The notes beneath the pieces are model-generated. The model was not told the DNA's origin. It did no database searches and worked only from the letters and a program-made list of their open reading frames with translations. From assembly GCA_026169535.1 (NCBI GenBank), contig JAPFCU010000064.1, forward strand, positions 1 through 64,000: DNA of 64,000 bases, in the 5' to 3' direction. The DNA comes from Blautia sp. (GTDB lineage: Bacteria > Bacillota > Clostridia > Lachnospirales > Lachnospiraceae). Positions 12,110 to 32,217 of this stretch are shown piece by piece; within the stretch, counting starts at the first letter, position 1, and each line of letters begins with the position of its first letter. The position numbers were made by a program, and so were the translations under genes.

Positions 12110-12143
12110 ATTAAATGAACAGAAAAGAAACAGGAGAAAAATC

Positions 12144-13649: not shown

Positions 13650-14224
13650 GTTCTGATAATTTCCTCGGCAATGGCTCGCTTGGAAATACAGCGGTCCATT
13701 GCCTGTTTTTCTATGTAACGGTGGGCTTCCGGTTCGTTCATGGAGAGCTCGCTGATCAAAATCCATTTAGCTCTGTTGGTTAGACGGATTTCAGCCATCT
13801 TATCTTCTAGGGATACAGATTTTTTTTCAAACAGTTTTAAACGCTCTCTTGCGCTTTCCATCCATCTGAGGGCATGGAGCAGAACCGGCTTTGAGACTGG
13901 CTTTGGGAGTGTGAATACACCATATTCAGAGACCTTGTTATGGATTTCCGAATGAATATCATTTTTAACCAGAAGCAGGACAGCGGTCTGTCTGGACACA
14001 GAGATGTCAATTGCAAAACGAATTCCGGTATCATCCGTAAGAGGGGCGTTTATGATAACAAAATCAAAGGCTTTTTCCGTTAACGCACGCCGGGCAGCAC
14101 TGACATTGGAGACAGTATGGACTGGATAATATCGCAATTCCGGCAACAGGTCTGTAAAGGCGGAGTTGAAACCGGTTGTTGAAGACACAATGAGCATACT
14201 GTAGGTACGTTCTTTTAACCCCAT
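13640..14224 (-). CDS. ANTAR-domain RNA-binding antiterminator with degenerate receiver
   Basis: A 194-residue regulator. Residues ~8-120 have a response-regulator receiver fold, but the phospho-acceptor site reads FVIINAPLTDDTG, with N59 where Asp is expected, and the usual acidic pair after the first strand is SS. K108 (TLPKP) remains. Residues ~136-193 are an ANTAR domain (LTNRAKWILISEL, then YIEKQAMDRCISKRAIAEEI), which binds hairpin RNA and prevents intrinsic termination. It is the last gene of the glutamate synthase/glutamine synthetase operon. Candidate targets are four AARGGC-loop hairpins at 18917-18934, 19070-19087, 19149-19166 and 24752-24769. Start 14224 follows GGAGGAGG; no phosphorylation partner is nearby or expected. 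Confidence 0.88.
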   Translation of the reverse strand: MGLKERTYSMLIVSSTTGFNSAFTDLLPELRYYPVHTVSNVSAARRALTEKAFDFVIINAPLTDDTGIRFAIDISVSRQTAVLLLVKNDIHSEIHNKVSEYGVFTLPKPVSKPVLLHALRWMESARERLKLFEKKSVSLEDKMAEIRLTNRAKWILISELSMNEPEAHRYIEKQAMDRCISKRAIAEEIIRTYT

Positions 14225-14246: not shown

Positions 14247-15467
14247 TTATTCAAATGATTGGGCACAGTAGATATTTAAAATTGCATCTGGTATATGATC
14301 TCTGATGAAATCGCTTCTGATGGCAGCTGTACAGGCAGATTTGAAATTCTCCGGAAGCTTCTGGAAATCTGCAAGGGTATCGGCATCAGCCTTATACAGG
14401 TTGATGTCTGCAGAAGCCGGAGGCTTTGTCTGATTCTGGATTCCGTCAAGAGCGGCATAGATCATCAGTGCAAATGCCAGATAGGTATTTGCAGATGGAT
14501 CCGGGGAACGGAGCTCCACACGCCGATATTTGTCAACTGCGGAAGGAACTCTGACAAGCTGTGATCGGTTTTCCCTGGACCAGGAAATATATTTCGGAGC
14601 TTTATTGCTTCCGAATCTTTTATAAGAATTTTCGGTTGGATTTAAAAATACGGTCATTTCTGAGATTTTATCCAGAATACCTGCGATCAGATAAGCCATA
14701 TGATCTTTGTGGTCAGAGGATCTGACAGACATATTTATATGGAAACCATTTCCCGGCATGTCTTCTAAGGGTTTGGGAGAAAAGTCGGCAAAAATACCAT
14801 TCTGTCTTGCAATGGTTTTTACTACTGTCTGAAAGGTCATGGCGTTGTCCGCGGCAGTCAGAGGATCAGAATAACGGAAGTCAATCTCATTCTGTCCCGG
14901 TCCCTCCTCGTGATGTGAGCTCTCTGGCTGGATTCCCATCTGTTCCAGTGTCAGACAGATCTCACGACGTATATTTTCTCCTCTGTCTTCAGGTGCAATA
15001 TCCATATAAGAAGCCTGATCGTAAGGGATTTTTGTGGGGCTTCCACTGTCATCCAGCTGAAATAGATAGAATTCCTGCTCTGCACCAAAGAAGAAGTGGT
15101 ATCCTGCCTTTTCAGCTTTCTGAACTGCTGTTTTTAAGATGGAACGTGTGTCGCATTCAAAGATTTTTCCATCCGGGTAGGTAATGCTGCAGAACATTCT
15201 GACCACACATCCATGTTCTGGTCTCCAGGGCAGTGGCATCAGGGTATCCGGTTCCGGGTGCAGAAAAAGATCGGAACGGTCTTCGTCTCCAAAGCCTGCA
15301 ATGGCGGATGCATCAATGGCAATACCGTATTCAAAAGCATGTGGGAGTTCCTGAGGCATAATGGATATATTTTTTTGCCTGCCAAATACGTCGCAAAAAG
15401 CCAGACGGATGAATTTCACATCTTCTTCCTGTACATACTGCATTACCTCTTCCTTTGAATATTTCAT
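14247..15467 (-). CDS. glnA: Glutamine synthetase, type I-like (short form)
   Basis: Makes glutamine from glutamate, ammonia and ATP in the cytoplasm. Family motifs visible are FFFGAEQEFYLF (metal-binding Glu), HHEEGPGQNEIDF, GNGFHINMS (conserved His), NPTENSYKRF and RRVELRSPDPSANTYLAFA. At 406 residues it is about 40 shorter than usual type I enzymes, and the glycine-rich segment before the active-site His is altered (PLEDMPGNGFH). Start 15467 follows AGGTAGG. It sits between the glutamate synthase pieces and the ANTAR gene, so GS and GOGAT are made together. A gamma-glutamyl ligase on another amine cannot be excluded, but the operon supports glutamine synthesis. Confidence 0.85.
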   Translation of the reverse strand: MKYSKEEVMQYVQEEDVKFIRLAFCDVFGRQKNISIMPQELPHAFEYGIAIDASAIAGFGDEDRSDLFLHPEPDTLMPLPWRPEHGCVVRMFCSITYPDGKIFECDTRSILKTAVQKAEKAGYHFFFGAEQEFYLFQLDDSGSPTKIPYDQASYMDIAPEDRGENIRREICLTLEQMGIQPESSHHEEGPGQNEIDFRYSDPLTAADNAMTFQTVVKTIARQNGIFADFSPKPLEDMPGNGFHINMSVRSSDHKDHMAYLIAGILDKISEMTVFLNPTENSYKRFGSNKAPKYISWSRENRSQLVRVPSAVDKYRRVELRSPDPSANTYLAFALMIYAALDGIQNQTKPPASADINLYKADADTLADFQKLPENFKSACTAAIRSDFIRDHIPDAILNIYCAQSFE

Positions 15468-15487
15468 AAGCCTACCTGCTTTCTTTT

Positions 15488-16210
15488 TTAATTTGCTACA
15501 TACATTTGTTTGTAAGGGTTTTGGCTGTCCGGTGTGATGACGGTAAAAGGAGCAGATAAAATTTCCTCCAGGGAATATCCGAAATCCGCACAATATTCGG
15601 ACAGATATGCCCTGATTTCCTGCAGATCCTGCGGGGATGCATATTTTGCTGTTACCTGTTGGGGAAAACGAATATCCTGACAGTTGCCGCGAAGGAACAT
15701 TTTGCCGCCGTGCATTCCGGTACAGGGGAAATTTCCTACAATCCGCCGGCTGTCTTTATGAAGTCCAAGAACGATAATGATGCCGCCGGCCTGGTATTCG
15801 CCAAGGAAGCTTCCGGCACATCCGCCGAGGATCATGACAGGAATCTTTTCTCTGTAAGCCTTCATATGGATTCCGGCGCGGTATCCTGCATTGCCCTTTA
15901 CATAAATTTTGCCGCCGCGCATGGCATAACCGGCAGCATCACCGATATTGCCGTGTATCAGGATCTTTCCTTCGTTCATGGTATCGCCTACAGCATCCTG
16001 GGCATTGGCATTTACGGTGATACTGGCATTATTTAAATATGCGCCCAGGGCATTTCCGGGAATACCATTGATAGTAAGATTTTTGTCGGACATACCGGCA
16101 GCGATAAACCTCTGACCACAGCAGCCTTCAATGATACAGTCACGGTCTGCTTTGCGCAGCGCCTCATTTACAGCCCTGTAATCTAAATTTGCAGCGTTGA
16201 TGATGTTCAT
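15488..16210 (-). CDS. Glutamate synthase, GXGXG (GltB C-terminal) subunit
   Basis: A 240-residue protein equal to the C-terminal right-handed beta-helix of the large glutamate synthase subunit. GXG-type repeats run through it: GNALGAYL, GDTMNEGKILIHGNIGDAAG, MRGGKIYVKGNAGYRAG and GGCAGSFLGEYQAGG. In the complete enzyme this domain supports the ammonia tunnel between the amidase and FMN centres. The ATG at 16210 is preferred, with GGAGG about 11 bases upstream; an in-frame TTG at 16228 is less likely. It lies directly downstream of the FMN/ferredoxin piece, as in archaeal-type split GOGAT operons. Confidence 0.88.
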   Translation of the reverse strand: MNIINAANLDYRAVNEALRKADRDCIIEGCCGQRFIAAGMSDKNLTINGIPGNALGAYLNNASITVNANAQDAVGDTMNEGKILIHGNIGDAAGYAMRGGKIYVKGNAGYRAGIHMKAYREKIPVMILGGCAGSFLGEYQAGGIIIVLGLHKDSRRIVGNFPCTGMHGGKMFLRGNCQDIRFPQQVTAKYASPQDLQEIRAYLSEYCADFGYSLEEILSAPFTVITPDSQNPYKQMYVAN

Positions 16211-16242
16211 ATTATACCATACCTCCAAAAAAAATGGTTATA

Positions 16243-17748
16243 TTATTCTCCGGCATGAAGAATACCGAGTATGTCAAGCTCTTTTTCTGTTAATCCGATG
16301 CCGCGCAGCATAAGGCGGTTTCCCCGCAAGGCCTCGATGGAATTGATGCCCATGCCTCCCATAAGTTCTTTGATCTCGTGCTTCCATGCGGTCATAAGAT
16401 TAACTAGCCGTTGTTTACCGGTTTCAGGGTCAAGTCTTTTTACAAGCTCAGGACGCTGAGTTGCAATTCCCCAGTTACATTTACCGCTCTGGCAGGTACG
16501 GCAGAGATGGCAGCCAAGGGCAAGAAGGGCGGCGGTTGCTACATAGCAGGCATCTGCACCCAGGGCAACAGCCTTTACTACATCAGCAGCGCTTCGGATA
16601 CTTCCGCCAACTATCAGTGATACATGATTGCGGATACCCTCGTCACGAAGTCTCTGATCTACAGCGGCAAGAGCCAGCTCGATGGGGATTCCCACATTGT
16701 CACGGATTCTGGTAGGAGCAGCTCCGGTACCGCCACGGAAACCGTCGATAGCGATGATGTCGGCTCCGCTTCGGGCAATACCGCTTGCAATGGCGGCGAT
16801 ATTATGGACGGCGGCCACCTTGACGATAACCGGCTTTTTATATTCTGTAGCTTCTTTCAGAGAGAATACAAGCTGTCGAAGATCTTCGATGGAGTAAATA
16901 TCATGGTGAGGGGCAGGAGAGATGGCATCAGAGCCTTCCGGAATCATACGGGTACGGGATACGTCGCCTACGATCTTCGCACCGGGAAGGTGACCGCCGA
17001 TCCCCGGCTTGGCGCCCTGGCCCATTTTAATCTCTATTGCTGCTCCTGCCTCCAGGTAATCCTCATAAACGCCGAAACGTCCGGAGGCTACCTGCACAAT
17101 CGTATTTTCACCATAGCAGTAAAAATCTTCGTGAAGACCGCCTTCACCGGTGTTATAAAAAATACCAAGTTCTGTGGCTGCCAGGGCAAGAGATTTGTGT
17201 GCATTGTAGCTGATGGAGCCATAGCTCATGGCAGAGAAGAGAATCGGCATAGAAAGCTCCAGCTGTGGCGGAAGTTTAAAATCCAGTTTTCCATCCTCTG
17301 TCCGTTTTACGTTCTGAGGCTTTTTACCCAGGTAAACTCTGGTTTCCATAGGCTCTCGGAGAGGATCGATGGAAGGATTGGTTACCTGTGATGCATTGAT
17401 CAGAATCTTGTCCCAGTATACAGGCAGCGATCTGGGATTTCCCATAGAGGACAAAAGTACTCCGCCGCTGTTTGCCTGTTTATAGATTTCATTTATGGTA
17501 TCGCCTGACCAGTTGGCATTTTCGCGCAGAGTACAGTCGGTTTTTACGATTTTTAATGCTTTGGTGGGACAAAAAGAAACACATCTCTGACAGTTGACAC
17601 ATTTTGATTCATCCTGTGTCATAAGTTTATTTTTTTCATCGTAGCCGTGTACTTCGTTGGAGCATTGCCGTTCACAGATTCGACAGGCAATACATCTCTT
17701 TTCATTTCGGATTACTTCAAATTCCGGATAGATAAATTCTACGCTCAT
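16243..17748 (-). CDS. Glutamate synthase, FMN/ferredoxin catalytic subunit
   Basis: The central synthase piece of a split GOGAT, 501 residues. It opens with two 4Fe-4S clusters of ferredoxin type (C19, C22, C25, C29 and C50, C53, C56, C60). Then comes the FMN-binding barrel, with GQGAKPGIGGHLPG, SPAPHHDIYSIEDL and DGFRGGTGAAP. Near the C terminus is the 3Fe-4S motif CHLCRTCQSGKC. It turns 2-oxoglutarate and glutamine-derived ammonia into glutamate. No NADPH-binding GltD gene is nearby, so ferredoxin is the likely donor. Its ATG overlaps the previous stop as TGATG (17750-17746), indicating coupling. Confidence 0.9.
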   Translation of the reverse strand: MSVEFIYPEFEVIRNEKRCIACRICERQCSNEVHGYDEKNKLMTQDESKCVNCQRCVSFCPTKALKIVKTDCTLRENANWSGDTINEIYKQANSGGVLLSSMGNPRSLPVYWDKILINASQVTNPSIDPLREPMETRVYLGKKPQNVKRTEDGKLDFKLPPQLELSMPILFSAMSYGSISYNAHKSLALAATELGIFYNTGEGGLHEDFYCYGENTIVQVASGRFGVYEDYLEAGAAIEIKMGQGAKPGIGGHLPGAKIVGDVSRTRMIPEGSDAISPAPHHDIYSIEDLRQLVFSLKEATEYKKPVIVKVAAVHNIAAIASGIARSGADIIAIDGFRGGTGAAPTRIRDNVGIPIELALAAVDQRLRDEGIRNHVSLIVGGSIRSAADVVKAVALGADACYVATAALLALGCHLCRTCQSGKCNWGIATQRPELVKRLDPETGKQRLVNLMTAWKHEIKELMGGMGINSIEALRGNRLMLRGIGLTEKELDILGILHAGE

Positions 17749-18842
17749 CAAAAGGCACCTTCCTTTACTTTTACAATAACCGGTTCTCCGCCGGCAGGAG
17801 ACCATATGTTTTCTGCATTGGGCTCCATGGTACGGATGGCTGCTTCTTCGCTGGAAATAAAGATTCTGTCATTCTTTTCTCCAACAACCATAGAACGCAG
17901 CTTTAGCCGGTCGTTCAGAGCCATCAGCCCGCCGTCAAAGCCCAGAACAATAGAAAAGGGGCCGGTGATCAGCAGGCTTGGGAACATAGTCCGCAGATAG
18001 GTGTGTTTTTTCTGGTCTTCCAGATCTGTTTTTGCGGCAATGGTACTCCAGAAGGGCGCTGCTATAACGCTTGCCGCTTCACCAAGAGTAAGCCCCTGTA
18101 TCCGGAGAAGATAGTCCATAATATAGGTAATAACCTCCGTATCGGTCTGAAGTGTACATTTGTAGCCAAACATTTCGATAAAACGGCGGTTTGCATCATA
18201 TGAGGAAATTTCTCCGTTATGAACAACAGAATAGTCAAGCAGGGTAAAGGGATGTGCTCCGCCCCACCATCCGGGAGTGTTTGTGGGATAACGTCCGTGA
18301 GCTGTCCAGGAATAGCCTTCATATTTTTCCAGCTTATAAAATATGCCTACATCTTCCGGAAAGCCTACAGCCTTGAAGGTTCCCATATTCTTACCGCTGG
18401 AAAAAACATAAGCCCCGGACATGTTTTCGTTGATCTTCATAACTGTTCTTGCAACAAATTCTTTCTCGTCCAGCTGCAAAGATATCAGAACGGACTTTAA
18501 CGGAGCAACAAAGTATCTCCATATAATAGGCTCGTCTTTGATGGCAGGAATTTTACGGGTTGGGATGATCTCCGACTGGATGATCTCAAACCGTTCCTTT
18601 AAGAAAGCCTCACACTCTTTTCTTGTATCACGGGTATCAAAGAACATATGTAATGCATAAAATTCTTTATATTCCGGATAAATACCATAACCTGCAAAGC
18701 CTCCGCCTAATCCGTTGGAACGATCATGCATGGGTTTCATGGAGTTTGTAATCATCTCACCGGACATTCTGTTTCCTTCCCTGGAAATCACTGCTGAGAT
18801 CGCACATCCGGAAGGGATTCTCACCTGACCTTCAATTTTCAT
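17748..18842 (-). CDS. Glutamate synthase, glutamine amidotransferase (class II) subunit
   Basis: A 364-residue Ntn-type amidotransferase matching the N-terminal domain of glutamate synthase. The likely nucleophile is C13 (PSGCAISAV), exposed after removal of a 12-residue propeptide. Other family features are GGGFAGYGIYPEY and the glutamine-site run WTAHGRYPTNTPGWWGGAHPF in parts, followed by VVHNGEIS. It releases ammonia from glutamine for the FMN subunit encoded next. It is first in the operon. The transcript begins about 95 bases upstream and must pass an intrinsic terminator (18870-18931) before reaching this gene. SD GGAAGGA. Confidence 0.9.
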   Translation of the reverse strand: MKIEGQVRIPSGCAISAVISREGNRMSGEMITNSMKPMHDRSNGLGGGFAGYGIYPEYKEFYALHMFFDTRDTRKECEAFLKERFEIIQSEIIPTRKIPAIKDEPIIWRYFVAPLKSVLISLQLDEKEFVARTVMKINENMSGAYVFSSGKNMGTFKAVGFPEDVGIFYKLEKYEGYSWTAHGRYPTNTPGWWGGAHPFTLLDYSVVHNGEISSYDANRRFIEMFGYKCTLQTDTEVITYIMDYLLRIQGLTLGEAASVIAAPFWSTIAAKTDLEDQKKHTYLRTMFPSLLITGPFSIVLGFDGGLMALNDRLKLRSMVVGEKNDRIFISSEEAAIRTMEPNAENIWSPAGGEPVIVKVKEGAF

Positions 18843-18869: not shown

Positions 18870-18931
18870 AAAAAAAGCAAAAACATTCATTACAGGACAG
18901 AAAATCTGCTCTGTAAATGAACGCCTTTGCT
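18870..18931 (-). terminator. Leader terminator (attenuator) of the GOGAT/glnA/ANTAR operon
   Basis: On the minus strand, a left arm at 18931-18911 pairs with a right arm at 18895-18876 over 20 bp, with three G-U pairs and one bulged base, then seven T residues (18876-18870). It lies between the promoter and the first gene, so transcription should stop before the operon unless the hairpin is blocked. Its left arm contains the ANTAR-type hairpin at 18917-18934; the two folds exclude each other. Confidence 0.85.
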
Positions 18932-18934
18932 CAT
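18917..18934 (-). promoter_or_regulatory. ANTAR-type target hairpin, GOGAT operon leader
   Basis: Minus-strand RNA AUGAGC-AAAGGC-GUUCAU: a six-pair stem around the hexaloop AAAGGC with A at loop position 1 and G at position 4, as known for ANTAR targets. The stem sequence differs at several positions from the glnN and pyrG copies (AAAGGC/GUCUUU) yet still pairs, and the loop is unchanged. It begins about two bases after the predicted transcription start. Confidence 0.8.
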
Positions 18935-18942
18935 GATTAATA

Positions 18943-18971
18943 GTTATACAACGGATGACAGATTTTGTCAA
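18943..18971 (-). promoter_or_regulatory. Predicted promoter of the GOGAT/glnA/ANTAR operon
   Basis: Minus-strand -35 TTGACA (18971-18966) and -10 TATAAC (18948-18943), exactly 17 bp apart. The predicted start near 18936 places the attenuator at the very front of the transcript. Confidence 0.8.
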
Positions 18972-19031
18972 GCGTTAAGAATTTTGGGTAAAATGAAAAA
19001 ATTAAAATTTTTAAAAATGACAAAAAGGGGA

Positions 19032-19060
19032 TTGACAGATGATTTTTTCAGGTGTATTAT
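19032..19060 (+). promoter_or_regulatory. Predicted promoter of glnN
   Basis: Consensus -35 TTGACA (19032-19037) and -10 TATTAT (19055-19060) with 17 bp between. The predicted start near 19067 is three bases before the first ANTAR-type hairpin. The 160-base leader holds two attenuators in series. Confidence 0.82.
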
Positions 19061-19069
19061 CCAACACGT

Positions 19070-19087
19070 AAAGGCAAAGGCGTCTTT
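19070..19087 (+). promoter_or_regulatory. ANTAR-type target hairpin 1, glnN leader
   Basis: AAAGGC-AAAGGC-GUCUUU: six-pair stem with one G-U, hexaloop AAAGGC with A1 and G4. A second short stem follows directly (UGAGA/UCUCA around AGAAGA), which gives a tandem-hairpin layout, although that loop lacks G4. Forming this hairpin removes bases needed for the terminator at 19076-19114. Confidence 0.78.
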
Positions 19088-19114
19088 GAGAAGAAGATCT
19101 CAGAGGCGCTTTTT
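19076..19114 (+). terminator. glnN leader terminator 1
   Basis: Left arm 19076-19090 pairs with right arm 19099-19113 over 15 bp with three G-U pairs; the loop is eight bases (six if the A-T closes). A five-T run ends at 19114. The flanking GTAAA/TTTAC can extend it. Confidence 0.75.
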
Positions 19115-19147
19115 ACATTTACAGAATTTAACAGGACAATTTGATCT

Positions 19148-19208
19148 AAAAGGCAAGGGCGTCTTTCATGTACGGGGAAAAGTATCATGAAAGATACTCT
19201 TGCCTTTT
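19148..19208 (+). terminator. glnN leader terminator 2
   Basis: Left arm 19148-19170 pairs with right arm 19186-19208 over 23 positions with two G-U pairs and one mismatch. The stem ends in TTTT and lies only a few bases before the glnN ribosome binding site, so it could reduce translation as well as transcription. Its 5' arm contains the second ANTAR-type hairpin. Confidence 0.75.
19149..19166 (+). promoter_or_regulatory. ANTAR-type target hairpin 2, glnN leader
   Basis: AAAGGC-AAGGGC-GUCUUU: the same six-pair stem as hairpin 1 with loop AAGGGC, which keeps A1 and G4 while position 3 varies. It is 79 bases downstream of hairpin 1 and competes with terminator 2. Confidence 0.75.
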
Positions 19209-19229
19209 CAAATTGAGAGGAGTGACATT

Positions 19230-21326
19230 ATGAAAAAAGTATCAGAATTTTTTGGAAGCAGAGTTTTCGATGACAGAGTAATGAAAGCCAATTTATCAGC
19301 CAAGGTTTATGACTCTTTGAGGAAAACCATTGATGAAGGGGCAAAGCTGGATATCAGCGTAGCCAATGCAGTTGCTGCGGCGATGAAGGACTGGGCAATA
19401 GAAAATGGAGCCACACATTATACCCATTGGTTTCAGCCCCTTACCGGTGTAACCGCAGAAAAGCATGACAGCTTTATTTCTCCATCCCCGGACGGCGGTG
19501 TGATCATGGAATTTTCTGGAAAGGAGCTGATCAAAGGCGAACCGGATGCATCCTCTTTTCCGTCAGGCGGATTAAGAGCTACATTTGAGGCGAGAGGGTA
19601 TACAGCATGGGATCCTACATCTTATGCGTTTATCAAAGGAAAAACACTTTGCATCCCTACTGCGTTCTGCTCCTATGGCGGAGAGGCTCTGGATAAGAAA
19701 ACGCCGCTGCTTCGATCTATGGAAGCTCTGAATAAGCAGGCTCTTCGTATCCTCCATCTTTTTGGAAATGAAGATGTGAAATGCGTCCGTACCTCAGTAG
19801 GACCGGAACAGGAATATTTTCTTATTACAAAGGAAATGTATGAGCAGAGAAAGGATCTTCGTTTTACAGGACGTACTCTTTTTGGTGCAAAACCGCCTAA
19901 GGGACAGGAAATGGACGACCATTATTTTGGAGTGATCAAGCCCAGAGTTTCCGCCTATATGGAAGAGTTGAATGAAGAACTCTGGAAACTGGGGATTCTG
20001 GCTAAGACAGAGCATAATGAAGTAGCTCCGGCCCAGCATGAACTGGCTCCTGTTTATACCACAACCAATCTTGCCACCGATCACAACCAGCTGACCATGG
20101 AGATTATGCAGAAGGTGGCGGCAAAAAACGGTCTTGTATGTCTGCTTCACGAAAAGCCCTTTGCTGGTGTAAACGGAAGTGGAAAGCACAATAACTGGTC
20201 TCTTGCAACTGATAAAGGCGTAAATCTTCTGTCACCGGGCGAGACCCCATATGAAAATGCGCAGTTTTTGTTATTTTTGTGCGCAGTACTCAAGGCTGTG
20301 GATGATTATCAGGATTTGCTTCGTCTTTCTGTGGCAACTGCAGGAAACGATCACAGACTTGGTGCCAATGAAGCTCCGCCGGCAGTAGTATCTGTATTTC
20401 TGGGAGATGAACTGAACGGTGTTCTGGAAGCCATTGAAACAGATACTCCATATGCAGGTGCGGAAAAAACACAGATGAAGCTTGGTGTGAATGTACTTCC
20501 GAAGTTCAACCGTGACACCACAGACCGTAACCGTACATCTCCGTTTGCATTTACCGGAAATAAATTCGAGTTCCGTATGCTTGGCTCCTCCAACAGCATT
20601 GCCTGCGCAAACATCATGCTGAACAGTGCGGTTGCAGAAAGCCTGAAGATTTATGCAGACAGACTGGAAAAGGCAGAAAATTTTGAGGACACTCTGCATG
20701 AAATGATCAGAAAGACCATAAGGGATCATAAGCATATTATTTTTAACGGGAATGGCTATGATGATACCTGGATTAAAGAAGCAACAGAAAAGAGAGGGCT
20801 GCTCAATTACCGTACCACACCGGACTGCATGCCCCATCTTCTGGATGAAAAAAATGTACGGATGCTGACTTCACATAAGGTATTTTCAGAAGCAGAACTG
20901 AAATCCCGGTACGAGATCATGCTGGACAACTATTGTAAGACAGTTTTGATAGAGGCAAACACCATGATCGATATGGCAAAGACAGAGATTGCTCCGGCGA
21001 TAAGCGCATATGCTCTTGAGCTTGCAAATACAGCGGCAGCAAAGAAGACGGTGGACGTAACTATTTCCTGCAGCTATGAAACAGGATTATTAAAGAAGCT
21101 TGCAAGACTGGAGGATCAGATCGCAGTCAGGGCAGACGAGCTGAAAACGGCAGTTATGAAATTACAGGATGCCAGTGACATTGAAGCAGAGTCTTATATG
21201 ATCCGTGACGAGATTTTAGGAAGAATGAGCGAACTGCGGATTGCCTGCGATGAGGCGGAAACAATAACAGCAAAGAAATACTGGCCATTCCCGACCTACA
21301 GTGATCTCTTATTCGGTGTAAAATAA
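19230..21326 (+). CDS. glnN: Glutamine synthetase type III
   Basis: A 698-residue type III glutamine synthetase, close to the family's usual ~700-730. Recognised by [16 protein letters not shown], the metal-site run [59 protein letters not shown] and [16 protein letters not shown]. It makes glutamine from glutamate, ammonia and ATP. Start 19230 follows GAGAGGAG by eight bases; an in-frame ATG at 19200 lies inside the leader terminator and is rejected. First gene of a plus-strand run with the ammonium transporter and asparagine synthase, divergent from the GOGAT/glnA operon. Expression is probably governed by two serial attenuators in its leader. Confidence 0.95.
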
Positions 21327-21358
21327 TCCACTCTAAAATAAAGAAAGAAGGTATGCTT

Positions 21359-23074
21359 ATGACTTACAGTGCAGTTAATACAATCTGGGTATTGATCGGA
21401 GCAGCATTGGTGTTCTTTATGCAGGCGGGATTTTCCATGTGCGAAGCAGGATTCACCAGAGCAAAAAATACAGGAAATATTTTAATGAAGAATCTGATGG
21501 ATTTTTGTATTGGCACACCGATTTTCTGGCTGGCAGGCTTCGGGCTGATGTTTGGAAGTGGATCTTCTGTGATTGGAACCTTTGATCCGATGATCCGTGG
21601 AGATTACAGCCACATCCTGCCATCGGGGGTGCCGTTGTGGGTATTTGCGATTTTTCAGACAGTTTTCTGTGCAACATCGGCAACAATTGTATCCGGAGCT
21701 ATGGCTGAACGAACAAAATTCAGTGCATACTGTGTTTATTCAGCAGCTATTTCTCTTCTTATCTATCCGATTTCAGGACACTGGATCTGGGGAGGAGGAT
21801 GGCTTTCGCAGCTGGGATTTCATGATTTTGCAGGTTCTACAGCAGTACATATGGTGGGTGGGATCTGTGCAATGATCGGAGCGAAGATTTTAGGCCCCCG
21901 TATTGGAAAATATGATAAGGACGGAAAGCCCCGGGCAATCCTGGGACACAATCTTACGTTTGCTGCGCTTGGTGTTTTTATCCTTTGGTTTTGCTGGTTT
22001 GGGTTTAATGGTGCATCTACGGTAGGCATGGACAGCGATGCTTTGATGGAAACTGCCGGGAGAGTATTTTTCAATACAAATATGGCAGCAGCAGTGGCCT
22101 GCTGTATTACTTTGATATTTACATGGATCCGCTATAAAAAACCAGACGTTTCCATGACATACAATGCGGCTTTGGCGGGACTTGTTGGTATCACCGCCGG
22201 ATGTGATGCAGTAAGCCCTGCAGGAGCGGCTGTGATTGGTATTGTCTGCGGTATTCTGGTTGTTCTTGCAGTTGAATTTTTTGATAAAAAAGCAAAAATT
22301 GACGATCCGGTAGGTGCAATATCCGTTCACTGCGTCTGCGGTGCTACAGGAACTGTCCTGACAGGTTTATTTGCAACAGGTATAACAACAGAGAAAGGGC
22401 TTTTCTATGGAGGTGGCGTACATTTTCTTGGGATTCAGGTGATCGGCGTTCTTTCCGTAGCAGCTTATGTGACAGTTATTATCACTCTGGTATTTCTGAC
22501 TATCAAGTATACAATTGGTCTTCGTGCAGATGCGGAGGATGAGATTGCAGGACTTGATGTATCCGAGCATGGATTACTGACAGCATATGATGGCTTTGCA
22601 ATGCTTCCTGACACAGCTACAGAGGATGAAGGAACGGCACCGGTTACGGTTGCAGGCGAGACTCCTGTTGCAGAGGCGATTCCGGTTAAAAAGGTTCTTT
22701 CCTTTGAGGAAGGTACACCAAAATTTACAAAAGTAGAGATTGTATGTAAAGAATCCAGATTCGAGGCACTGAAGAATGCTATGATGAGTATTGGCATTAC
22801 CGGAATGACGGTATCTCATGTTCTGGGCTGTGGTATACAGAAAGGCAGAGCAGAGTATTATCGAGGTATACAGGTAGAAGCGAATCTGCTTCCAAAAGTG
22901 CAGGTGGAGATTGTAGTCAGTGCTGTTCCGGTTCGTAAAGTTATTGATACGGCGAAAAAAGTTCTTTATACAGGACATATCGGAGATGGAAAGATTTTTG
23001 TATATGATGTGGAAAATGTTGTAAAGGTAAGAACCGGAGAAGAAGGTTTTGACGCGCTGCAGGATATAGAATAG
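21359..23074 (+). CDS. amt: Ammonium transporter fused to a PII signalling domain
   Basis: A 571-residue fusion. Residues 1-~400 are an Amt channel with 11 expected membrane segments and family motifs MQAGFSMCEAGFTRAKN, GHWIWGGGWL and DFAGSTAVHMVGG. After a linker, residues ~455-571 are a PII (GlnB/GlnK) domain: FTKVEIVCKESRFEALKNAM, T-loop region GIQKGRAEYYRG, then VEIVVSAVPVRKVIDTAKK. Free PII trimers plug Amt pores in response to 2-oxoglutarate and ATP/ADP, so a covalent PII should sense and gate in place. The ATG at 21359 is used because AGAAGG is seven bases upstream; the ATG at 21353 is too close to it. No separate glnK gene is adjacent. Confidence 0.92.
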   Translation: MTYSAVNTIWVLIGAALVFFMQAGFSMCEAGFTRAKNTGNILMKNLMDFCIGTPIFWLAGFGLMFGSGSSVIGTFDPMIRGDYSHILPSGVPLWVFAIFQTVFCATSATIVSGAMAERTKFSAYCVYSAAISLLIYPISGHWIWGGGWLSQLGFHDFAGSTAVHMVGGICAMIGAKILGPRIGKYDKDGKPRAILGHNLTFAALGVFILWFCWFGFNGASTVGMDSDALMETAGRVFFNTNMAAAVACCITLIFTWIRYKKPDVSMTYNAALAGLVGITAGCDAVSPAGAAVIGIVCGILVVLAVEFFDKKAKIDDPVGAISVHCVCGATGTVLTGLFATGITTEKGLFYGGGVHFLGIQVIGVLSVAAYVTVIITLVFLTIKYTIGLRADAEDEIAGLDVSEHGLLTAYDGFAMLPDTATEDEGTAPVTVAGETPVAEAIPVKKVLSFEEGTPKFTKVEIVCKESRFEALKNAMMSIGITGMTVSHVLGCGIQKGRAEYYRGIQVEANLLPKVQVEIVVSAVPVRKVIDTAKKVLYTGHIGDGKIFVYDVENVVKVRTGEEGFDALQDIE

Positions 23075-23108
23075 CATATTTTTACTAAAACTATGGAGGT
23101 ATATTTAA

Positions 23109-24689
23109 ATGTGTTCTATTATGGGATATTGCAGTCAGAGCGCCTCTTTTGATGTCTTTTTGGAAGGCTTTCAAAAAACTGTATCAAGAGGGCCGGATGA
23201 CAGTCGGGTAGTTGAAACAGAAGGAGGAATCCTTGGATTTCACAGACTGGCGATTATGGGACTGACTCCGTCGGGGATGCAGCCCTTTCAGTACAAAAAC
23301 AGCTATGTGGTCTGTAATGGAGAAATTTACGGGTTCGGGAAGCTGAAGGAAGAGCTGTCAGCAAAATATACATTTAAAAGCGAATCAGACTGTGAAATAC
23401 TTTTGCCGTTATACCAGGAATACGGTACGGATATGTTTTCTATGTTGGATGCAGAGTTTGCCTGTATTATTTATGACGGGGAAAACAGGGAGTTTATTGC
23501 TGCAAGGGATCCCATTGGAATCCGTCCTCTCTATTATGGATATGACAGAAACGGCGCTGTGATCTTTGCCAGCGAAGCAAAAAACCTGACCGGAATCACA
23601 GATAAGATTATGCCGTTCCCTCCGGGTCATTATTATAAAGGCGGCCGTTTTATCTGCTATTGTGACATTACAAAGGTAAATGAAGTCTGCAGTGATGACC
23701 TGGAAACCGTCTGCAGGAAAATCCATGACAAATTGGTCGCCGGTGTGGAAAAACGTCTTGTGGCAGATGCCAGAGTGGGATTCCTGCTTTCCGGCGGGCT
23801 GGATTCCTCGCTGGTATGTGCCATTGCAGCAAAAAAGACTGGAGAACCGATCAGAACCTTTGCAATTGGAATGAGCGAAGATGCCATTGACTTAAAATAT
23901 GCGAAGCAGACAGCAGATTATATCGGAAGCGATCATACAGAGATTTATATGACACCGCAGGATGTACTGTCTTCACTGGAAACGGTCATTCAGATTCTGG
24001 GAACTTATGATATTACTACGATTCGTGCATCCATGGGTATGTATCTGGTGTGCAAGGCGATTCATGAGCAGACAGATATCCGCGTCCTTCTGACCGGAGA
24101 AATATCCGATGAGCTGTTTGGTTATAAGTATACAGATTTTGCCCCGGATGCAGAAGCCTTCCAGAAGGAATCACAGAAACGGATTCATGAGATTCATATG
24201 TATGATGTACTTCGCGCGGATCGCTGCATTTCTGTAAATTCTTTGGAAGCAAGAGTTCCTTTTGGTGATCTGGAGTTTGTAAAATATGTAATGTCCATAG
24301 ATCCTGAAATAAAGCTCAACACTTACGGAAAAGGAAAATACCTGCTGCGCCATGCATTTGAACAGGATTGTTATCTGCCGGATGAGATCCTGTGGAGAGA
24401 AAAGGCGGCTTTCTCAGATGCAGTAGGACATTCTATGGTGGATTATCTGAAAGAATATGCAGAAAGCAGATACACCGATGCAGAATTAAAGGAGAAAAGT
24501 CAGGGATATACATATGCCAGACCATTTACAAAAGAATCTCTGTTGTACAGGGAGATTTTTGAGAAATACTATCCGGGTCAGGCAGAAATGATCCCAGGCT
24601 TCTGGATGCCGAACAGAGAATGGGAAGGCTGTGACGTAAATGATCCTTCGGCAAGAGTACTTTCAAACTATGGTGACAGTGGAAAATAA
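23109..24689 (+). CDS. asnB: Asparagine synthase (glutamine-hydrolysing)
   Basis: A 526-residue AsnB that uses glutamine, aspartate and ATP to make asparagine. C2 (MCSIMGYC) is the amidotransferase nucleophile, followed by RGPDDSR, FHRLAIMG and CNGEIYG. The synthetase half contains the ATP loop SGGLDSSLVCAI and LTGEISDELFGY. GGAGG lies nine bases before the ATG. It follows glnN and amt on the same strand, 34 bp after amt, so it is probably cotranscribed and shares their leader control. The pyrG promoter and leader terminator lie in the 171 bases after its stop, and that terminator may also end this transcript. Confidence 0.93.
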   Translation: MCSIMGYCSQSASFDVFLEGFQKTVSRGPDDSRVVETEGGILGFHRLAIMGLTPSGMQPFQYKNSYVVCNGEIYGFGKLKEELSAKYTFKSESDCEILLPLYQEYGTDMFSMLDAEFACIIYDGENREFIAARDPIGIRPLYYGYDRNGAVIFASEAKNLTGITDKIMPFPPGHYYKGGRFICYCDITKVNEVCSDDLETVCRKIHDKLVAGVEKRLVADARVGFLLSGGLDSSLVCAIAAKKTGEPIRTFAIGMSEDAIDLKYAKQTADYIGSDHTEIYMTPQDVLSSLETVIQILGTYDITTIRASMGMYLVCKAIHEQTDIRVLLTGEISDELFGYKYTDFAPDAEAFQKESQKRIHEIHMYDVLRADRCISVNSLEARVPFGDLEFVKYVMSIDPEIKLNTYGKGKYLLRHAFEQDCYLPDEILWREKAAFSDAVGHSMVDYLKEYAESRYTDAELKEKSQGYTYARPFTKESLLYREIFEKYYPGQAEMIPGFWMPNREWEGCDVNDPSARVLSNYGDSGK

Positions 24690-24713
24690 AATGAGATTTT
24701 AATATAAAACAGA

Positions 24714-24742
24714 TTGACAGGAGGAATGATTCGAGGTAAAAT
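24714..24742 (+). promoter_or_regulatory. Predicted promoter of the pyrG operon
   Basis: -35 TTGACA (24714-24719) and -10 TAAAAT (24737-24742), 17 bp apart. The predicted start near 24749 is about three bases before the ANTAR-type hairpin, the same geometry as at glnN and the GOGAT operon. Confidence 0.78.
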
Positions 24743-24751
24743 AATGTGAAT

Positions 24752-24769
24752 AAAGGCAAAGGCGTCTTT
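24752..24769 (+). promoter_or_regulatory. ANTAR-type target hairpin, pyrG leader
   Basis: AAAGGC-AAAGGC-GUCUUU, identical over all 18 bases to glnN hairpin 1: six-pair stem with hexaloop AAAGGC (A1, G4). It overlaps the 5' arm of the terminator at 24752-24808, so the two structures compete. Confidence 0.78.
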
Positions 24770-24808
24770 AAGTTTGAATAAAACTTAAGGGTGCTTTTGC
24801 CTTTTTTT
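24752..24808 (+). terminator. pyrG leader terminator
   Basis: Left arm 24752-24775 and right arm 24781-24804 pair over 24 bp with four G-U pairs and a five-base loop GAATA; seven T residues follow (24802-24808). It is a strong intrinsic terminator lying between the pyrG promoter and pyrG, and also downstream of asnB. Confidence 0.88.
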
Positions 24809-24848: not shown

Positions 24849-26480
<1,632 letters not shown>

Positions 26481-26491
26481 CAGGAGAAAAG

Positions 26492-27916
26492 ATGGTTATG
26501 GCTATTCATGAAGAATGCGGTGTATTTGGAATAATGAGCACCAGAAAGGAAAATGTGGCAGGAATCACCTATTACGGACTGTATGCCCTGCAACACAGAG
26601 GACAGGAAAGCTGCGGAATTGTTGTCAATGACGACGGTATGTTTTCTTCCTGCAAGGACTTGGGGCTTGTCAGTGATGTGTTTTCAAAAGATTCCCTGTC
26701 GCTTCTGCCGGAAGGAAATATGGCGGTGGGGCACGTAAGATACGGAACAACCGGAGGGACAACGCGGAATAACTGTCAGCCTATCGAAGTGAATCACCAG
26801 AAGGGTAAGATGGCCCTGGCACATAATGGAAATCTGACAAATGCCCTGGAACTGCGTGATAAGCTTGAACTGTCAGGAGCAATCTTTCATACCACAAGCG
26901 ATACGGAAACCATAGCGTACGTGATCACCAGAGAGAGACTGATGACACCCAGTATAGAAGAGGCGGTAAGCAATACAATGAACCTTTTGGAGGGTGCCTA
27001 TTCTCTGGTTCTGATGTCCTCTGCCAAAATGATTGCTGCGAGAGATCCGTATGGGTTCAGACCGCTCTGTTATGGAAGAAGGCCGGATGGAGCTTATGTG
27101 GCAGCATCAGAAAGCTGTGCACTGGCAGCAGTTGGAGCAGAGTATATCAGGGATTTGATGCCGGGTGAGATTCTGGTATTTCATGATAATTGCGTGGAAT
27201 CCAGAAGGGAGCACTGTGGAAAACAAAAAAAGAAAACCTGTATCTTTGAGTATATTTATTTTGCAAGACCAGATTCTGTGATTGATGGTGTATCTGTTCA
27301 CGAGTCACGGGTACAGGCAGGAAAGATTCTGGCAGAACATTATCCTGTGGAGGCAGATGTTGTGATCGGAGTTCCGGACAGCGGGCTGGACGCTGCTCTT
27401 GGTTATTCGGAGAAATCAGGTATTCCCTATGGTATCGGGCTGATAAAAAACAAGTATATTGGAAGAACCTTTATTTCTCCTGGACAAAGCGAACGTCTGG
27501 ACAAGGTCAGGATAAAGCTTTCTCCTGTACAAAGCGTAATTGAAGGGAAAAAAGTTGTACTGGTTGATGATTCAATTGTAAGAGGCACTACCAGCAGGCA
27601 GATCGTGAAGCTTTTGCAGGAGTCGGGGGCTAGGGAAATACATATGAGAATATCGGCTCCGCCTTTCTTACATCCCTGCTATTATGGCACAGATATTGAC
27701 TCAGAAGAAAATCTCATAGCCTGCCATCACAGCCTGGAAGAGATTGCAAAACTTATTGGTGTGGATTCTCTGGGTTATCTGGATGTAGAGAATCTGGGTC
27801 AGCTGATCGGCAGTGAGGAGTATTGCGGCGCCTGTTTTCATGGAGAATATCCGACGAGGATTCCCACAGACCTGAGAAAAGACCGGTTTGAAAGAAAATT
27901 ATCTCATAAAATCTAA
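26492..27916 (+). CDS. purF: Amidophosphoribosyltransferase
   Basis: First committed step of purine synthesis: PRPP plus glutamine to phosphoribosylamine. 474 residues. An eight-residue propeptide (MVMAIHEE) precedes the class II nucleophile C9 (CGVFGIM). The phosphoribosyl site is VVLVDDSIVRGTTSRQIV. Cysteines C-terminal to the amidase domain (CIFEYIYF, CHHSL, YCGACFHG) fit Fe-S ligation as in Bacillus PurF, though this is family knowledge. AGGAG lies about six bases before the first ATG. It follows pyrG by 11 bp. Placing purF with pyrG and carAB instead of a pur operon is notable: all use glutamine. Confidence 0.95.
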   Translation: MVMAIHEECGVFGIMSTRKENVAGITYYGLYALQHRGQESCGIVVNDDGMFSSCKDLGLVSDVFSKDSLSLLPEGNMAVGHVRYGTTGGTTRNNCQPIEVNHQKGKMALAHNGNLTNALELRDKLELSGAIFHTTSDTETIAYVITRERLMTPSIEEAVSNTMNLLEGAYSLVLMSSAKMIAARDPYGFRPLCYGRRPDGAYVAASESCALAAVGAEYIRDLMPGEILVFHDNCVESRREHCGKQKKKTCIFEYIYFARPDSVIDGVSVHESRVQAGKILAEHYPVEADVVIGVPDSGLDAALGYSEKSGIPYGIGLIKNKYIGRTFISPGQSERLDKVRIKLSPVQSVIEGKKVVLVDDSIVRGTTSRQIVKLLQESGAREIHMRISAPPFLHPCYYGTDIDSEENLIACHHSLEEIAKLIGVDSLGYLDVENLGQLIGSEEYCGACFHGEYPTRIPTDLRKDRFERKLSHKI

Positions 27917-27935
27917 ATAACGAGGAGCAGAGATT

Positions 27936-29036
27936 ATGAAAAAATTTGACAGAAAACTGATTCTGGAAGACGGCAGCGAATATTATGGATATGGATTTGG
28001 TTCCGAAAAGGAGAAGATTACGGAAATTGTATTTAATACCTCTCCGGTTGGATATCAGGAAATTATATCTGATCCCTCTTATACCTATCAGACTGTTGTG
28101 ATGGCCTATCCCCTTATTGGCAACTATGGAATTGCAGAAGATGATTTTGAAACAGAAACACCAACCATAGGAGGTCTGGTTGTAAGAGATTACAACGATC
28201 ACCCATCGAACTTCCGCAGTAAGTATACTTTGTCTGAAACTATGGAAAAATATCAGATTCCCGGCATTTATGGAGTAGATACAAGAAAGCTTGTTCGTTC
28301 TATCCGGGATCTGGGAAGCAGAAAAGCTCTGATCACAGATGCCGGAACATCCCTGCAGGAAGGACTCTGCAGACTGGCAGCCTGTAAGCTTCCAAAGGAT
28401 GCGGTAGCAGTCGTCAGCAGGAAGCAGATACAGCAGTACACAGTTCCAAATGGAAAATATCAGGTGGCGGCCATTGATTGTGGAATGAAACAGAATATTG
28501 TGAGAAGTTTAAACAGGCGAGGCTGTAATGTGACGGTATTTCCATGGAATGCGTCTGTGGAAGAAATTGAAAAAATGAAACCGGACGGAATTTTTTTATC
28601 TAATGGTCCGGGAGACCCTGCAGATGTCTGGCCGGTTATTGAACTGGTTCGGAGTCTTCGGGGAAAATATCCGATTTTTGGTATCTGCTTGGGGCATCAG
28701 ATTATTTCTCTGGCATACGGTGCAGAAACCTATAAGCTGAAGTTTGGTCACAGAGGAGGAAACCATCCGGTAAAAAATCTTCTCACAGGAAAAATAGAAA
28801 TTACTTCTCAGAATCATTCTTATGCAGTGGACAGAGAAAGTCTTGCAGCTACCAGACTGAAAATTACTCATCTGAATCTTCTGGATCAGACGGTAGAAGG
28901 TGTCTGCTGTGAGGACGACAGGGTGTTCAGCGTGCAGTATCATCCGGAAAGCGCGCCGGGACCTCAGGACAGCGGTTATCTGTTTGAGCAGTTTACAGAA
29001 ATGATGGAGGAAGCAAAAAATGGCAAAAAGAACTGA
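27936..29036 (+). CDS. carA: Carbamoyl-phosphate synthase small subunit
   Basis: A 366-residue glutaminase subunit of carbamoyl-phosphate synthase, which feeds pyrimidine and arginine synthesis. The N-terminal family domain includes [13 protein letters not shown] and [17 protein letters not shown]. The class I amidotransferase has nucleophile C251 (FGICLGHQ), followed by the strand [11 protein letters not shown]. It lies 19 bp after purF with a clear GAGGAG site, and its last 17 bases overlap carB, as is common for the pair. Confidence 0.95.
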
Positions 29037-32000
29037 TCTGAAGAAAATACTGGTTATTGGTTCCGGTCCCATTGTGATCGGACAGGCGGCAGAATTTGAC
29101 TATGCAGGCACGCAGGCCTGCCTTGCACTGAAGGAAGAGGGCTATGAGGTGGTTCTTTGCAACTCCAATCCGGCAACCATTATGACAGATACTTCTATTG
29201 CAGATAAGGTGTATATGGAACCGCTTACCCTGGAATATATAGCAAAGATCGTCCGTCATGAGCGTCCGGATGCAATAGTGCCCGGAATCGGCGGCCAGAC
29301 CGGACTGAATCTGGCAATGCAGCTTGAGAAAAAGGGAATTTTAAAGGAATGTCAGGTAGAGCTTCTGGGAACAAGCAGCGAGAGTATTGAAAGAGCAGAA
29401 GACAGAGAATTATTTAAAGAGCTCTGTGAAAGTCTTGGAGAGCCGGTGCTCCCATCTGCCATTGCGAATACAGTTGAAGAGGCTGCAAAGGCAGCAGAGG
29501 ACATCGGCTATCCGGTAGTGCTTCGTCCGGCATTTACTCTTGGGGGAACCGGCGGTGGATTTGCAGATAATGAGCAGGAATTTATGGGACTGATAAAAAA
29601 TGCACTTGCCTTATCTCCGGTCCATCAGGTTCTGGTAGAAAAAAGTATCAGAGGATTTAAGGAGATCGAATATGAAGTGATCCGTGATGCCAATGACACG
29701 GCAATTACAGTCTGCAATATGGAGAATCTGGATCCGGTAGGCATACATACCGGAGATTCTATTGTGGTTTGTCCGTCTCAGACACTGACGAATAAAGAAT
29801 ATCAGATGCTGCGTGACAGCGCTCTGAAGCTTATCCGTGCTTTGAAGGTAGAAGGCGGCTGCAACGTGCAGTTCGCTCTTGATCCAAATTCTTTTCAGTA
29901 TTATCTGATCGAGGTAAATCCACGTGTTTCCCGTTCTTCAGCGCTGGCTTCCAAGGCAAGCGGATATCCCATCGCAAGGGTGTCTGCAAAGATTAGTGTG
30001 GGAATGACTCTGGATGAGATCAAGCTGGTGAATACACCGGCAGCCTTTGAACCGGCTCTGGATTATGTAGTAACAAAAATGCCCCGTTTTCCATTTGACA
30101 AATTTACAGATGCTAATCAGAAACTTGGAACGCAGATGAAGGCTACCGGCGAAGTTATGAGCGTCGGCAGAACTTTTGAGGAAAGTTTGTTAAAGGCCAT
30201 CCGTTCTCTGGAAACAGGTGCGGATCACTTATATATGGAAAAGTTTGAAAAAGAAACAGAAAAGGAACTGATGGAATACATCGGAATCGGTACAGACGAC
30301 CGTATTTTTGCCATTGCCCGGTTATTGAGAATGGGTGTGGAAATTTCTGCTGTCCGGGAGAGGACATCGATCGATCTTTTCTTCCTGGATAAGCTCAAAA
30401 AGATTATTGATATGGAAGGAGAACTGAAGCGGTATGTCGGCGACAGGGAACTCCTGTATCAGGCAAAGAAAGTCGGATTTTCCGATAAAGCAATTGCCGG
30501 ATTCTGGAATATGAAAGAGCTGGAAGTATATGAAATGCGAAAAAAATATAACATATTTCCGGTCTATAAGATGATCGATACCTGCGCATCAGAATTTGAA
30601 AGCTATGTTCCGTACTTTTATTCCACTTATGAAGAAGAAAACGAATCCATAGTGGAAGAAAGAAAAAAGATTATTGTACTGGGATCCGGACCGATTCGTA
30701 TCGGCCAGGGGGTAGAATTTGACTATTCCACAGTACATGCAGTGAAGACCATTAAAGAAGCAGGATATGAGGCAATTATCATAAATAATAATCCGGAAAC
30801 CGTATCTACGGATTATACCACATCAGACAAACTGTATTTTGAACCTCTTTGCATAGAGGATGTAATGAATGTCATTGAAATGGAGAAGCCGGACGGCATC
30901 ATTGCGTCATTAGGAGGTCAGACGGCCATTAATCTGGCAGAGCCTTTGAGAGAACATGGAATAAAGCTGATAGGTACAGACTGTGCAGCAATTGAGAGGG
31001 CAGAAAACAGAGATGCTTTTGAAAAGCTGCTGTCAGAGCTGGAAATTCCACAGCCAAAGGGACAGGCAGTCACAAATATAGAAGCGGGAGTAAAGGCAGC
31101 AGAAGAAATCGGTTATCCGGTATTGGTGAGGCCAAGCTTTGTACTTGGTGGAAGAGCCATGCAGATAGTGGCAAAGGAAGAATATCTGCGAAATTATCTG
31201 AAAACAGCAGTGGAGATTGATGAAGATAAACCGGTGCTTGTAGATAAGTATATTCGAGGAAAAGAAGTGGAAATAGACGCTGTCTGTGACGGCAGAGATG
31301 TATTTGTGCCGGGGATTATGGAACTTGTAGAAAGAACGGGCGTTCATTCTGGAGATTCCATCAGTGTATATCCGACCTTCAGCATTTCGGATAAGGTAAA
31401 GAAAACAATTCTGGATTATGCGAAAAAACTGGGTGTGGGAATTGGCATTGTGGGACTGTTTAACATCCAGTTTATTGTGGACAAACAGGAAAATGTTTAT
31501 ATTATTGAGGTAAATCCACGTTCTTCAAGAACAGTTCCGTTTCTTTCCAAGGCAACCGGGTATCCTCTGGCAGATATTGCAACAAAAGTCATCCTCGGAA
31601 AGAGCCTGAAGGAGCAGGGAATTTCCGTAATGTATCCGGAAGAAAAGAAGAGATGGTATGTAAAGGTTCCAGCGTTCTCCTTTGCCAAGCTGAATGGTAT
31701 GGATGCATATCTTTCTCCGGAAATGAAATCCACAGGAGAAGCCATTGGCTATGATAAAAAGCTTCACAGAGCAATGTACAAAGCCATGATTGCATCCGGA
31801 ATCCGGGTTCAAAACTATGGAACCGTAATCGTAACACTTGCAGATGAAGACAAGAAGGAAGCACTTCCGCTGGTGAGGCGTTTTTATGATATGGGATTTA
31901 ATATAGAAGCTACATCCCTTACAGCAGAATACTTAAAACAAAATGGAATCCGTACCCGTGTGCTTGGAAAACCGTCGGAGGGAAGCAGTGAGATACTGGA

Positions 32001-32202: not shown

Positions 32203-32217
32203 AAGGAGAAAGAGAAT

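Follow-up and report, generated by a model that had tools for sequence, protein, structure and literature searches.

Single-hexaloop leaders point to a probable ANTAR antitermination regulon that joins glutamine formation to glutamine use in Clostridia

Three operons for making and spending glutamine lie in a 64,000-nucleotide stretch of Blautia sp. DNA (assembly GCA_026169535.1, contig JAPFCU010000064.1; the window in what follows), and one of them encodes an ANTAR-domain protein. A split glutamate synthase (GOGAT, three genes) is followed, all in one direction on the - strand, by glnA and the ANTAR gene; divergent from it, on the + strand, run glnN, an amt/GlnK fusion and asnB; after asnB, on the same strand and with operon-like gaps, come pyrG, purF, carA, carB and dapL. 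Each operon is headed by a leader in which a hairpin with a six-base loop (hexaloop) overlaps an intrinsic terminator. The best explanation of these leaders, and one that can be held with good confidence, is a regulon under ANTAR antitermination in which a single hexaloop is set against each terminator.

The leaders of the window

The three leaders share one plan, with promoters read from the sequence and hairpins and terminators from folding. On the - strand, the GOGAT promoter TTGACA-17-TATAAC (18943..18971) is followed, 8 nt after its -10 hexamer, by the hairpin ATGAGC[AAAGGC]GTTCAT (18917..18934) and by a terminator with its U-tract (18870..18929; z -5.4) whose formation and that of the hexaloop are mutually exclusive. 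On the + strand, the glnN promoter TTGACA-17-TATTAT (19032..19060) leads after 9 nt into unit a, AAAGGC[AAAGGC]GTCTTT (19070..19087), and its terminator (19076..19114; z -5.7); unit b, AAAGGC[AAGGGC]GTCTTT (19149..19166), stands 79 nt after unit a and has a terminator (19149..19208; z -6.6) with the short U-tract TTTTC. The pyrG leader, also on the + strand, consists of the promoter TTGACA-17-TAAAAT (24714..24742), the hairpin AAAGGC[AAAGGC]GTCTTT (24752..24769), again 9 nt after the -10 hexamer, and a terminator with U-tract (24752..24808; z -7.5). A covariance model of promoter plus hairpin that was trained on leaders (R1) matches the GOGAT and pyrG leaders, both of them training sequences, with 55.9 and 52.6 bits, and the glnN leader, outside the training set, with 63 bits.

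Stems of 6 bp and loops with A1 and G4 are common to the four units, the loop being AAAGGC in three and AAGGGC in one; the GOGAT and pyrG leaders hold one unit each and the glnN leader two in tandem. Each short stretch folds alone as the hexaloop hairpin and, when the downstream sequence is included, as a terminator that consumes the hexaloop: in all three leaders the 3' strand of the hexaloop hairpin also lies within the 5' arm of the overlapping terminator. The four terminators fold with -23 to -34 kcal/mol (z -5.4 to -7.5), a stability that none of 200 shuffled sequences equals. The pattern RRGCAARGGCGTY occurs four times in the window against 0.05 expected, a count reached by 0 of 100 shuffles, and its only other exact match in the window's genome (89.75% complete) falls within an open reading frame (ORF) of 446 aa and is without the 6-bp stem. 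The initial annotation, which was made from the letters alone, had listed three TTGACA-17 promoters, which are present as read, and four hexaloop units in the 5' arms of four terminators, which folding and the shuffles bear out. An Rfam scan of the window gave no family over its gathering threshold; the leaders drew sub-gathering matches only, and these were rejected on that ground.

Conservation of the leader in relatives

The same anatomy was sought in 80 loci with an ortholog of the ANTAR protein (56-74% identity, the best 80 of 539), which were fetched by protein similarity alone and of which the closest come from Mediterraneibacter and other Lachnospiraceae; together with the window these make 81 sequences. 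They hold 149 units of the form GCAANGNNG[T/C] with an overlapping terminator, spread over 57 of the 81, in a search that did not demand a promoter. A promoter scoring at least 9/12 lies within 60 nt of 99 of the 117 first or only units, compared with 37 of 585 random positions, and among these 99 the spacer is 17 nt long in 92 and the gap to the hairpin 7-11 nt in 91. Because of this spacing, an RNA polymerase that starts at the customary distance past the -10 box would normally transcribe the hairpin before anything else: with a start assumed 7 nt past that box, the hairpin begins after 1-2 nt in 141 of 190 leaders.

The C[AANG] form stands out in searches that presuppose only its A1 and G4. 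When any ANNG hexaloop on a stem of at least 4 bp, with a promoter of at least 10/12 and an overlapping terminator, is accepted, the 81 sequences yield 105 units, with the C[AANG] form in 101, and the reversed sequence a single unit that is not C[AANG]; at promoter score 9 the corresponding numbers are 34 (10 C[AANG]) and 20 (none). A wider search that includes loci fetched with the motif model gives C[AANG] in 190 of 195 units, against 0 of 1 in reversed sequence. Scanning for hexaloop and terminator with neither promoter nor C[AANG] demanded proved noisy (392 matches, 265 in reversed sequence) and was set aside. Outside the window units the detector demands A1 and G4; position 2, which was not demanded, is A in 192 of the 195 units, and positions 3, 5 and 6 vary. 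In the larger set of 244 leaders described below, for which A2 was demanded as well, position 3 is A, G, T or C in 158, 50, 24 and 12 leaders, position 5 is G in 224 and position 6 is C in 212.

The stem covaries. Among 66 aligned leaders, preselected for stems of at least 5 bp in a way that favours pairing, 98% of cells are paired and there are 97 double-sided changes, a number that 0 of 500 shuffles reach; controls in which the stem is slid stay at or below 56%. Conservation of stem pairing and loop in related leaders had been offered in the initial annotation as a test of its proposal, and the proposal withstands it. Leaders in genomes of the window's own genus have shorter stems, for example AAAGC/GCTTT before glnN and GAAC/GTTC before glnA.

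The genes behind the leader

When a leader is defined as a C[AANG] hairpin that stands 4-12 nt behind a promoter of at least 9/12 and overlaps a terminator, the fetched loci yield 244 distinct examples from 117 genomes; a tandem second unit may count as a separate leader if it passes the promoter rule. The target is the first recognised gene within 900 nt downstream, labelled by BLAST against the window proteins and ten named representatives. So defined, 227 of the 244 leaders precede nitrogen- or glutamine-linked genes: glnN (83 leaders, in 75 genomes), GOGAT (52), glnA (15), gdhA (14), purC (11), pyrG (9), amt (8), purF (8), guaA (7), asnB (7), glmS (6), gatD (3, in 2 genomes) and purA, carA, nadE and dapL (1 each). 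The other leaders precede a gene for a PPDK_N-like protein (4) or a MATE protein (2), or have an unrecognised target (11). The representatives of guaA, gdhA, purA, glmS, MATE, purC, nadE, dapL and purB exceed their NCBIfam cut-offs; that of gatD, a 123-aa ORF, is below both of its cut-offs, and the PPDK_N-like protein was named by Pfam.

The proportions need care. The glnN and GOGAT leaders are over-counted, because the similarity-fetched loci are ANTAR neighbourhoods; most of the pyrG, purC, guaA and glmS leaders were met when whole genomes were searched with R1, a model that knows no downstream gene. A leader stands before asnB, pyrG, purF, guaA, purC, purA, carA, glmS, nadE or gatD in 46 genomes, and before a nucleotide gene of that set in 37, both counts including purC and purA, which do not use glutamine. 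Besides the window's, 8 genomes have such a leader before pyrG. Behind a leader stand pyrG-purF-dapL in G067 and G068 and gatD-purC-purA-purB-guaA in G178; elsewhere a leader precedes dapL alone. The regulon joining glutamine supply to glutamine use that the initial annotation had put forward is largely supported, and extended, by these 244 leaders and the recurring pyrG leader, and is amended in two respects taken up below: its targets have single hairpins, and its ANTAR protein lacks the phosphorylation aspartate.

One locus (L216, G043) has the order leader-glnA-ANTAR-carA-carB, with the regulator joined directly to carbamoyl-phosphate synthase. The MATE family transporter gene follows a single-hexaloop leader in two genomes (L178 in G061, L222 in G101), and the PPDK_N-domain protein follows one in four (L242 in G127, L098 in G126, and G117 and G262), the L242 protein being the one that was scanned. 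Single cases place a leader before a circularly permuted ATP-grasp protein (L250, G108) and before an ATP synthase A-chain protein (L097, G091).

Co-occurrence of leader and ANTAR gene

R1 was applied to genomes at E 1e-4 or 1e-5, since at E 0.01 it matched 58 of the 61 genomes of the relatives set (which includes the window genome) and was useless. In a class sample of 196 genomes, at E 1e-5, the ANTAR domain PF03861 is found in 30 of 34 motif-bearing and 70 of 162 other genomes (Fisher 9.8e-7, kinship uncorrected), and in 13 of the 14 genomes with an R1 match of at least 40 bits; among the relatives at the same threshold, the numbers are 14 of 15 and 31 of 46. Conversely, 39 of 39 and 30 of 36 ortholog-bearing genomes in two sets have the motif at E 1e-4. 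The training leaders of R1 came from 32 and 9 of these genomes, respectively; outside the training genomes the counts are 7 of 7 and 21 of 27. Genomes of the same genus carry a diverged ANTAR gene: PF03861 is present in 33 of 36, the window protein finds a match (E 0.001) in only 19 of 36, and these matches have at most 38% identity, two of the 19 covering the receiver only.

The ANTAR protein and its candidate sensor

The candidate antiterminator (13640..14224, - strand; 194 aa) is the one ANTAR-domain match in the window's genome. Its C-terminus matches PF03861 with 55.9 bits (cut-off 27.3; 3.7e-15), which places it in the ANTAR family, and the preceding domain matches PF00072 (4e-7). The phosphate-accepting aspartate is replaced by Asn in 81 of 81 ANTAR proteins, so that they do not qualify as phosphorylated response regulators, and the positions aligned with the acidic pair of Rv1626 are Ser and Ala/Ser/Thr. 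Judged by its residues, the receiver is a pseudo-receiver. The initial annotation had missed the loss of the aspartate. Relatives by sequence in the Protein Data Bank include Rv1626, AmiR and EutV, the EutV match pairing residues 136-188 with query residues 21-73. On a residue mapping that rests on the equal lengths of these ranges and assumes that the construct is offset by two residues, the RNA-contact residues of EutV would correspond as follows: Met172 to M176 (Met in 81 of 81), Lys143 to R147 (Arg in 80 of 81, one Lys), Lys147 to R151 (Arg or Lys in 80 of 81) and Tyr164 to H168 (His in 81 of 81, as in AmiR); the position of Arg142, also an RNA contact of EutV, would be Ile.

In all 71 loci with more than 1.5 kb of upstream sequence (9 of the 80 had too little), glnA lies directly upstream of the ANTAR gene, within 200 nt and with a median gap of 36 nt; in 57 of the 71, part of GOGAT is found no more than 6.5 kb upstream. 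The pseudo-receiver and the invariant adjacency of glnA make glutamine synthetase a candidate sensor. The chain of events would run as follows. Transcription from a strong sigma-70-type promoter would start ~1-2 nt before the hairpin, so that the C[AANGNN]G hexaloop would be the first structure to leave RNA polymerase. Free ANTAR protein would bind the hairpin and hold it, keeping its 3' strand from the terminator, and the operon would be read; with the protein sequestered, the terminator would form. At the glnN leader the decision would be taken twice, once at each tandem unit. A pseudo-receiver suggests control by sequestration, and the simplest sequesterer, by analogy with AmiC-AmiR and NasS-NasT, would be glutamine synthetase in its glutamine-bound form, in which case low glutamine would open the regulon. 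The genes so opened would serve ammonia assimilation (GOGAT, glnA, glnN, gdhA, amt) as well as the enzymes or pathways in which glutamine, glutamate or ammonia is consumed (asnB, pyrG, purF, purC, guaA, glmS, carAB, gatD, nadE, dapL). One reading of why glutamine-spending genes should rise with glutamine-making ones is that more amidotransferase would offset scarce glutamine.

The full proposal pairs glutamine synthetase, as sensor, with a non-phosphorylatable ANTAR protein, as antiterminator. The pair would work through one hexaloop at the 5' end with no recruitment hairpin, and would set glutamine making together with most of the pathways that depend on a glutamine amidotransferase (purines, pyrimidines, asparagine, amino sugars, cell-wall amidation, NAD) across many Clostridia. 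This proposal is advanced tentatively, as something a little short of an even bet. A serious competitor, itself somewhat below even chances, keeps the regulon and assigns the sensing to a PII-like (GlnK) domain or another factor: the amt-GlnK fusion belongs to the regulon, while, in counts that covered glnA and GOGAT, it is glnA that adjoins the ANTAR gene in all 71 loci, with GOGAT nearby in most. With glutamine synthetase in the candidate sensor role, the proposal suggests a simple clostridial circuit that ties nitrogen assimilation to glutamine-dependent biosynthesis.

One hairpin or two, and which reader

The described ANTAR antiterminator needs an upstream hairpin, P1, and EutV needs both hairpins in vivo (PMC3369931); lengthening the linker between them by 20 nt abolishes EutV antitermination (PMC8934654). 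The present leaders share with this design a hexaloop with A1 and G4 and a terminator that overlaps the hairpin, here the single one. They lack two hexaloops joined by a short linker: an ANNG hexaloop of at least 4 bp lies within 70 nt upstream in 12 of 190 leaders, where 20 shuffles give a mean of 14.9 (range 4-25). Downstream, such hexaloops are in excess (46 of 190, shuffled mean 18.8), and the excess, 31 of the 46 being C[AANG], is attributed to tandem second units. By their anatomy, then, the leaders are not classical dual-hairpin targets and appear to carry one hexaloop per terminator at the predicted transcript start; the initial annotation had correctly placed the hexaloop in the terminator and overlooked the lack of P1. 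It is improbable that they are classical targets after all, with P1 upstream of the predicted start or supplied by tandem units or divergent leaders. Tandem second units are indeed common (31 among 148 units), and the GOGAT and glnN leaders of the window are adjacent and divergent; yet upstream hexaloops are not enriched, the hairpin stands, by its promoter spacing, where transcription would begin, and the window's GOGAT and pyrG leaders have one unit each. Of 32 tandem spacings, 25 measure 69-83 nt and the others are longer; a linker with 20 added nucleotides abolished EutV action (PMC8934654).

An EutV dimer binds one hexaloop, and the 2022 EutV-RNA structure paper, which raises in its Discussion the question of why two hairpins are needed, redefines the minimal ANTAR site as a single hexaloop and calls for further bioinformatic and experimental work (PMC8934654). 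The leader anatomy, as predicted, fits that minimal site, and with so many natural terminator leaders of the single-hexaloop kind the question can be put to a direct test.

Several observations weigh against a single-hexaloop ANTAR regulon. It departs from the only mechanism that has been shown, because EutV needs both hairpins and a short linker. The dual-hairpin positive control, a search with the 13-base EutV pattern, failed: it matched in 164 of 196 genomes, and the matches were judged to be mostly chance (of 30 loci viewed, 15 had an overlapping hairpin and T-run, and 2 of these an upstream hexaloop). In the 66 aligned leaders, the number of stem pairs with a double change (4) is reached by 50 of 500 shuffles. 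The motif is missing at E 1e-4 from 6 of the 36 ortholog-bearing genomes of the second set, and at E 1e-5 from 70 ANTAR-bearing genomes of the class sample, and the co-occurrence counts are not independent, since the genomes are related. Finally, five motif-bearing genomes have no detectable ANTAR domain (G152, G153, G178, G208 and G019), the first four have no match to the ANTAR ortholog profile either, and G178 has five motif matches.

These five genomes are what favours a reader of another kind, an RNA-binding protein or small-molecule sensor, with the ANTAR gene a coincidental neighbour. Such a reader is unlikely: motif and ANTAR domain co-occur statistically, the loop signature is ANTAR-type, the ANTAR gene sits inside a controlled operon and no Rfam family scored over its gathering threshold; in G178, contig C57 stops where one leader does, so that an operon beyond it may be missing from the assembly. 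For pyrG alone, CTP-sensing attenuation by reiterative transcription, a mechanism known from Bacillus subtilis, would suit a terminator near the promoter and is very improbable, the predicted pyrG start having no GGGC run and the leader being the same element as those of glnN, purC and others. Antitermination by the ANTAR protein, acting on single hexaloops, stays the preferred reading of all three leaders.

Genes of the window

The gene names of the initial annotation hold for all three operons on domain and family model matches. The split glutamate synthase (15488..18842, - strand) comprises a GXGXG, a ferredoxin-Glu_synthase and a GATase_2 piece, named from their domain matches; glnA (14247..15593, - strand), which immediately precedes the ANTAR gene, encodes a type I glutamine synthetase whose best NCBIfam match, TIGR00653, reaches 347 bits and is below its 429-bit cut-off. 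On the + strand, glnN (19218-21326) is named from weak GlnA-family matches; the amt-GlnK fusion (21353-23074), asnB (23109-24689) and the pyrG, purF, carA, carB and dapL genes (24861..33405) have models over cut-off, the last five in NCBIfam. Convergent with the ANTAR gene, at 10760-13649 (+), are genes for a DUF2201 VWA-like/metallopeptidase protein and an AAA ATPase. A 924-aa protein (6220-8994, +) joins elongation-factor-G-like domains (GTP_EFTU, EFG_IV, EFG_C) to a C-terminal YacP-like NYN domain.

Comparison with known systems

In Clostridium saccharobutylicum the ANTAR-type regulator gene nitR stands beside glnA, a pair absent from the literature matches listed. ANTAR control of nitrogen genes is already known: a 2012 paper predicted it for GS, GOGAT, amt and PII genes in Desulfotomaculum and others (PMC3369931). 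Those regulons resemble the present one in their targets and in having several leaders per genome; they differ in having been found with a dual-hairpin model, and nucleotide, glmS, guaA, gatD and nadE targets are not named in section 10 of that paper (PMC3369931). Single-hexaloop antitermination, and ANTAR control of purine, pyrG, glmS, guaA, gatD or nadE genes, do not appear among the literature matches listed.

The EutV-EutW system and the eut leaders of Enterococcus faecalis are alike in the ANTAR protein and in an A1 and G4 hexaloop within the 5' arm of the terminator (PMC3369931, PMC8934654), and the EutV consensus AGCAANGRRGCUY resembles the loop and closing pair found here (PMC3369931). 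EutV has a phosphorylatable receiver and the dual hairpins P1-P2 (PMC3369931, PMC8934654), in contrast with a pseudo-receiver and one hairpin; counted from the start, the EutV loop bases are A29/G32 and A53/G56, whereas the hairpin here stands at the predicted start itself. AmiR is closer in its receiver, being a pseudo-receiver ANTAR regulator under a partner protein, AmiC (PMC8934654), and, on the assumed-offset mapping, also in the His at its loop-stacking position. NasS-NasT offers a complex that dissociates on nitrate (PMC3795266). What would set the present system apart from both pairs is the nature of the partner, which would be an enzyme, glutamine synthetase.

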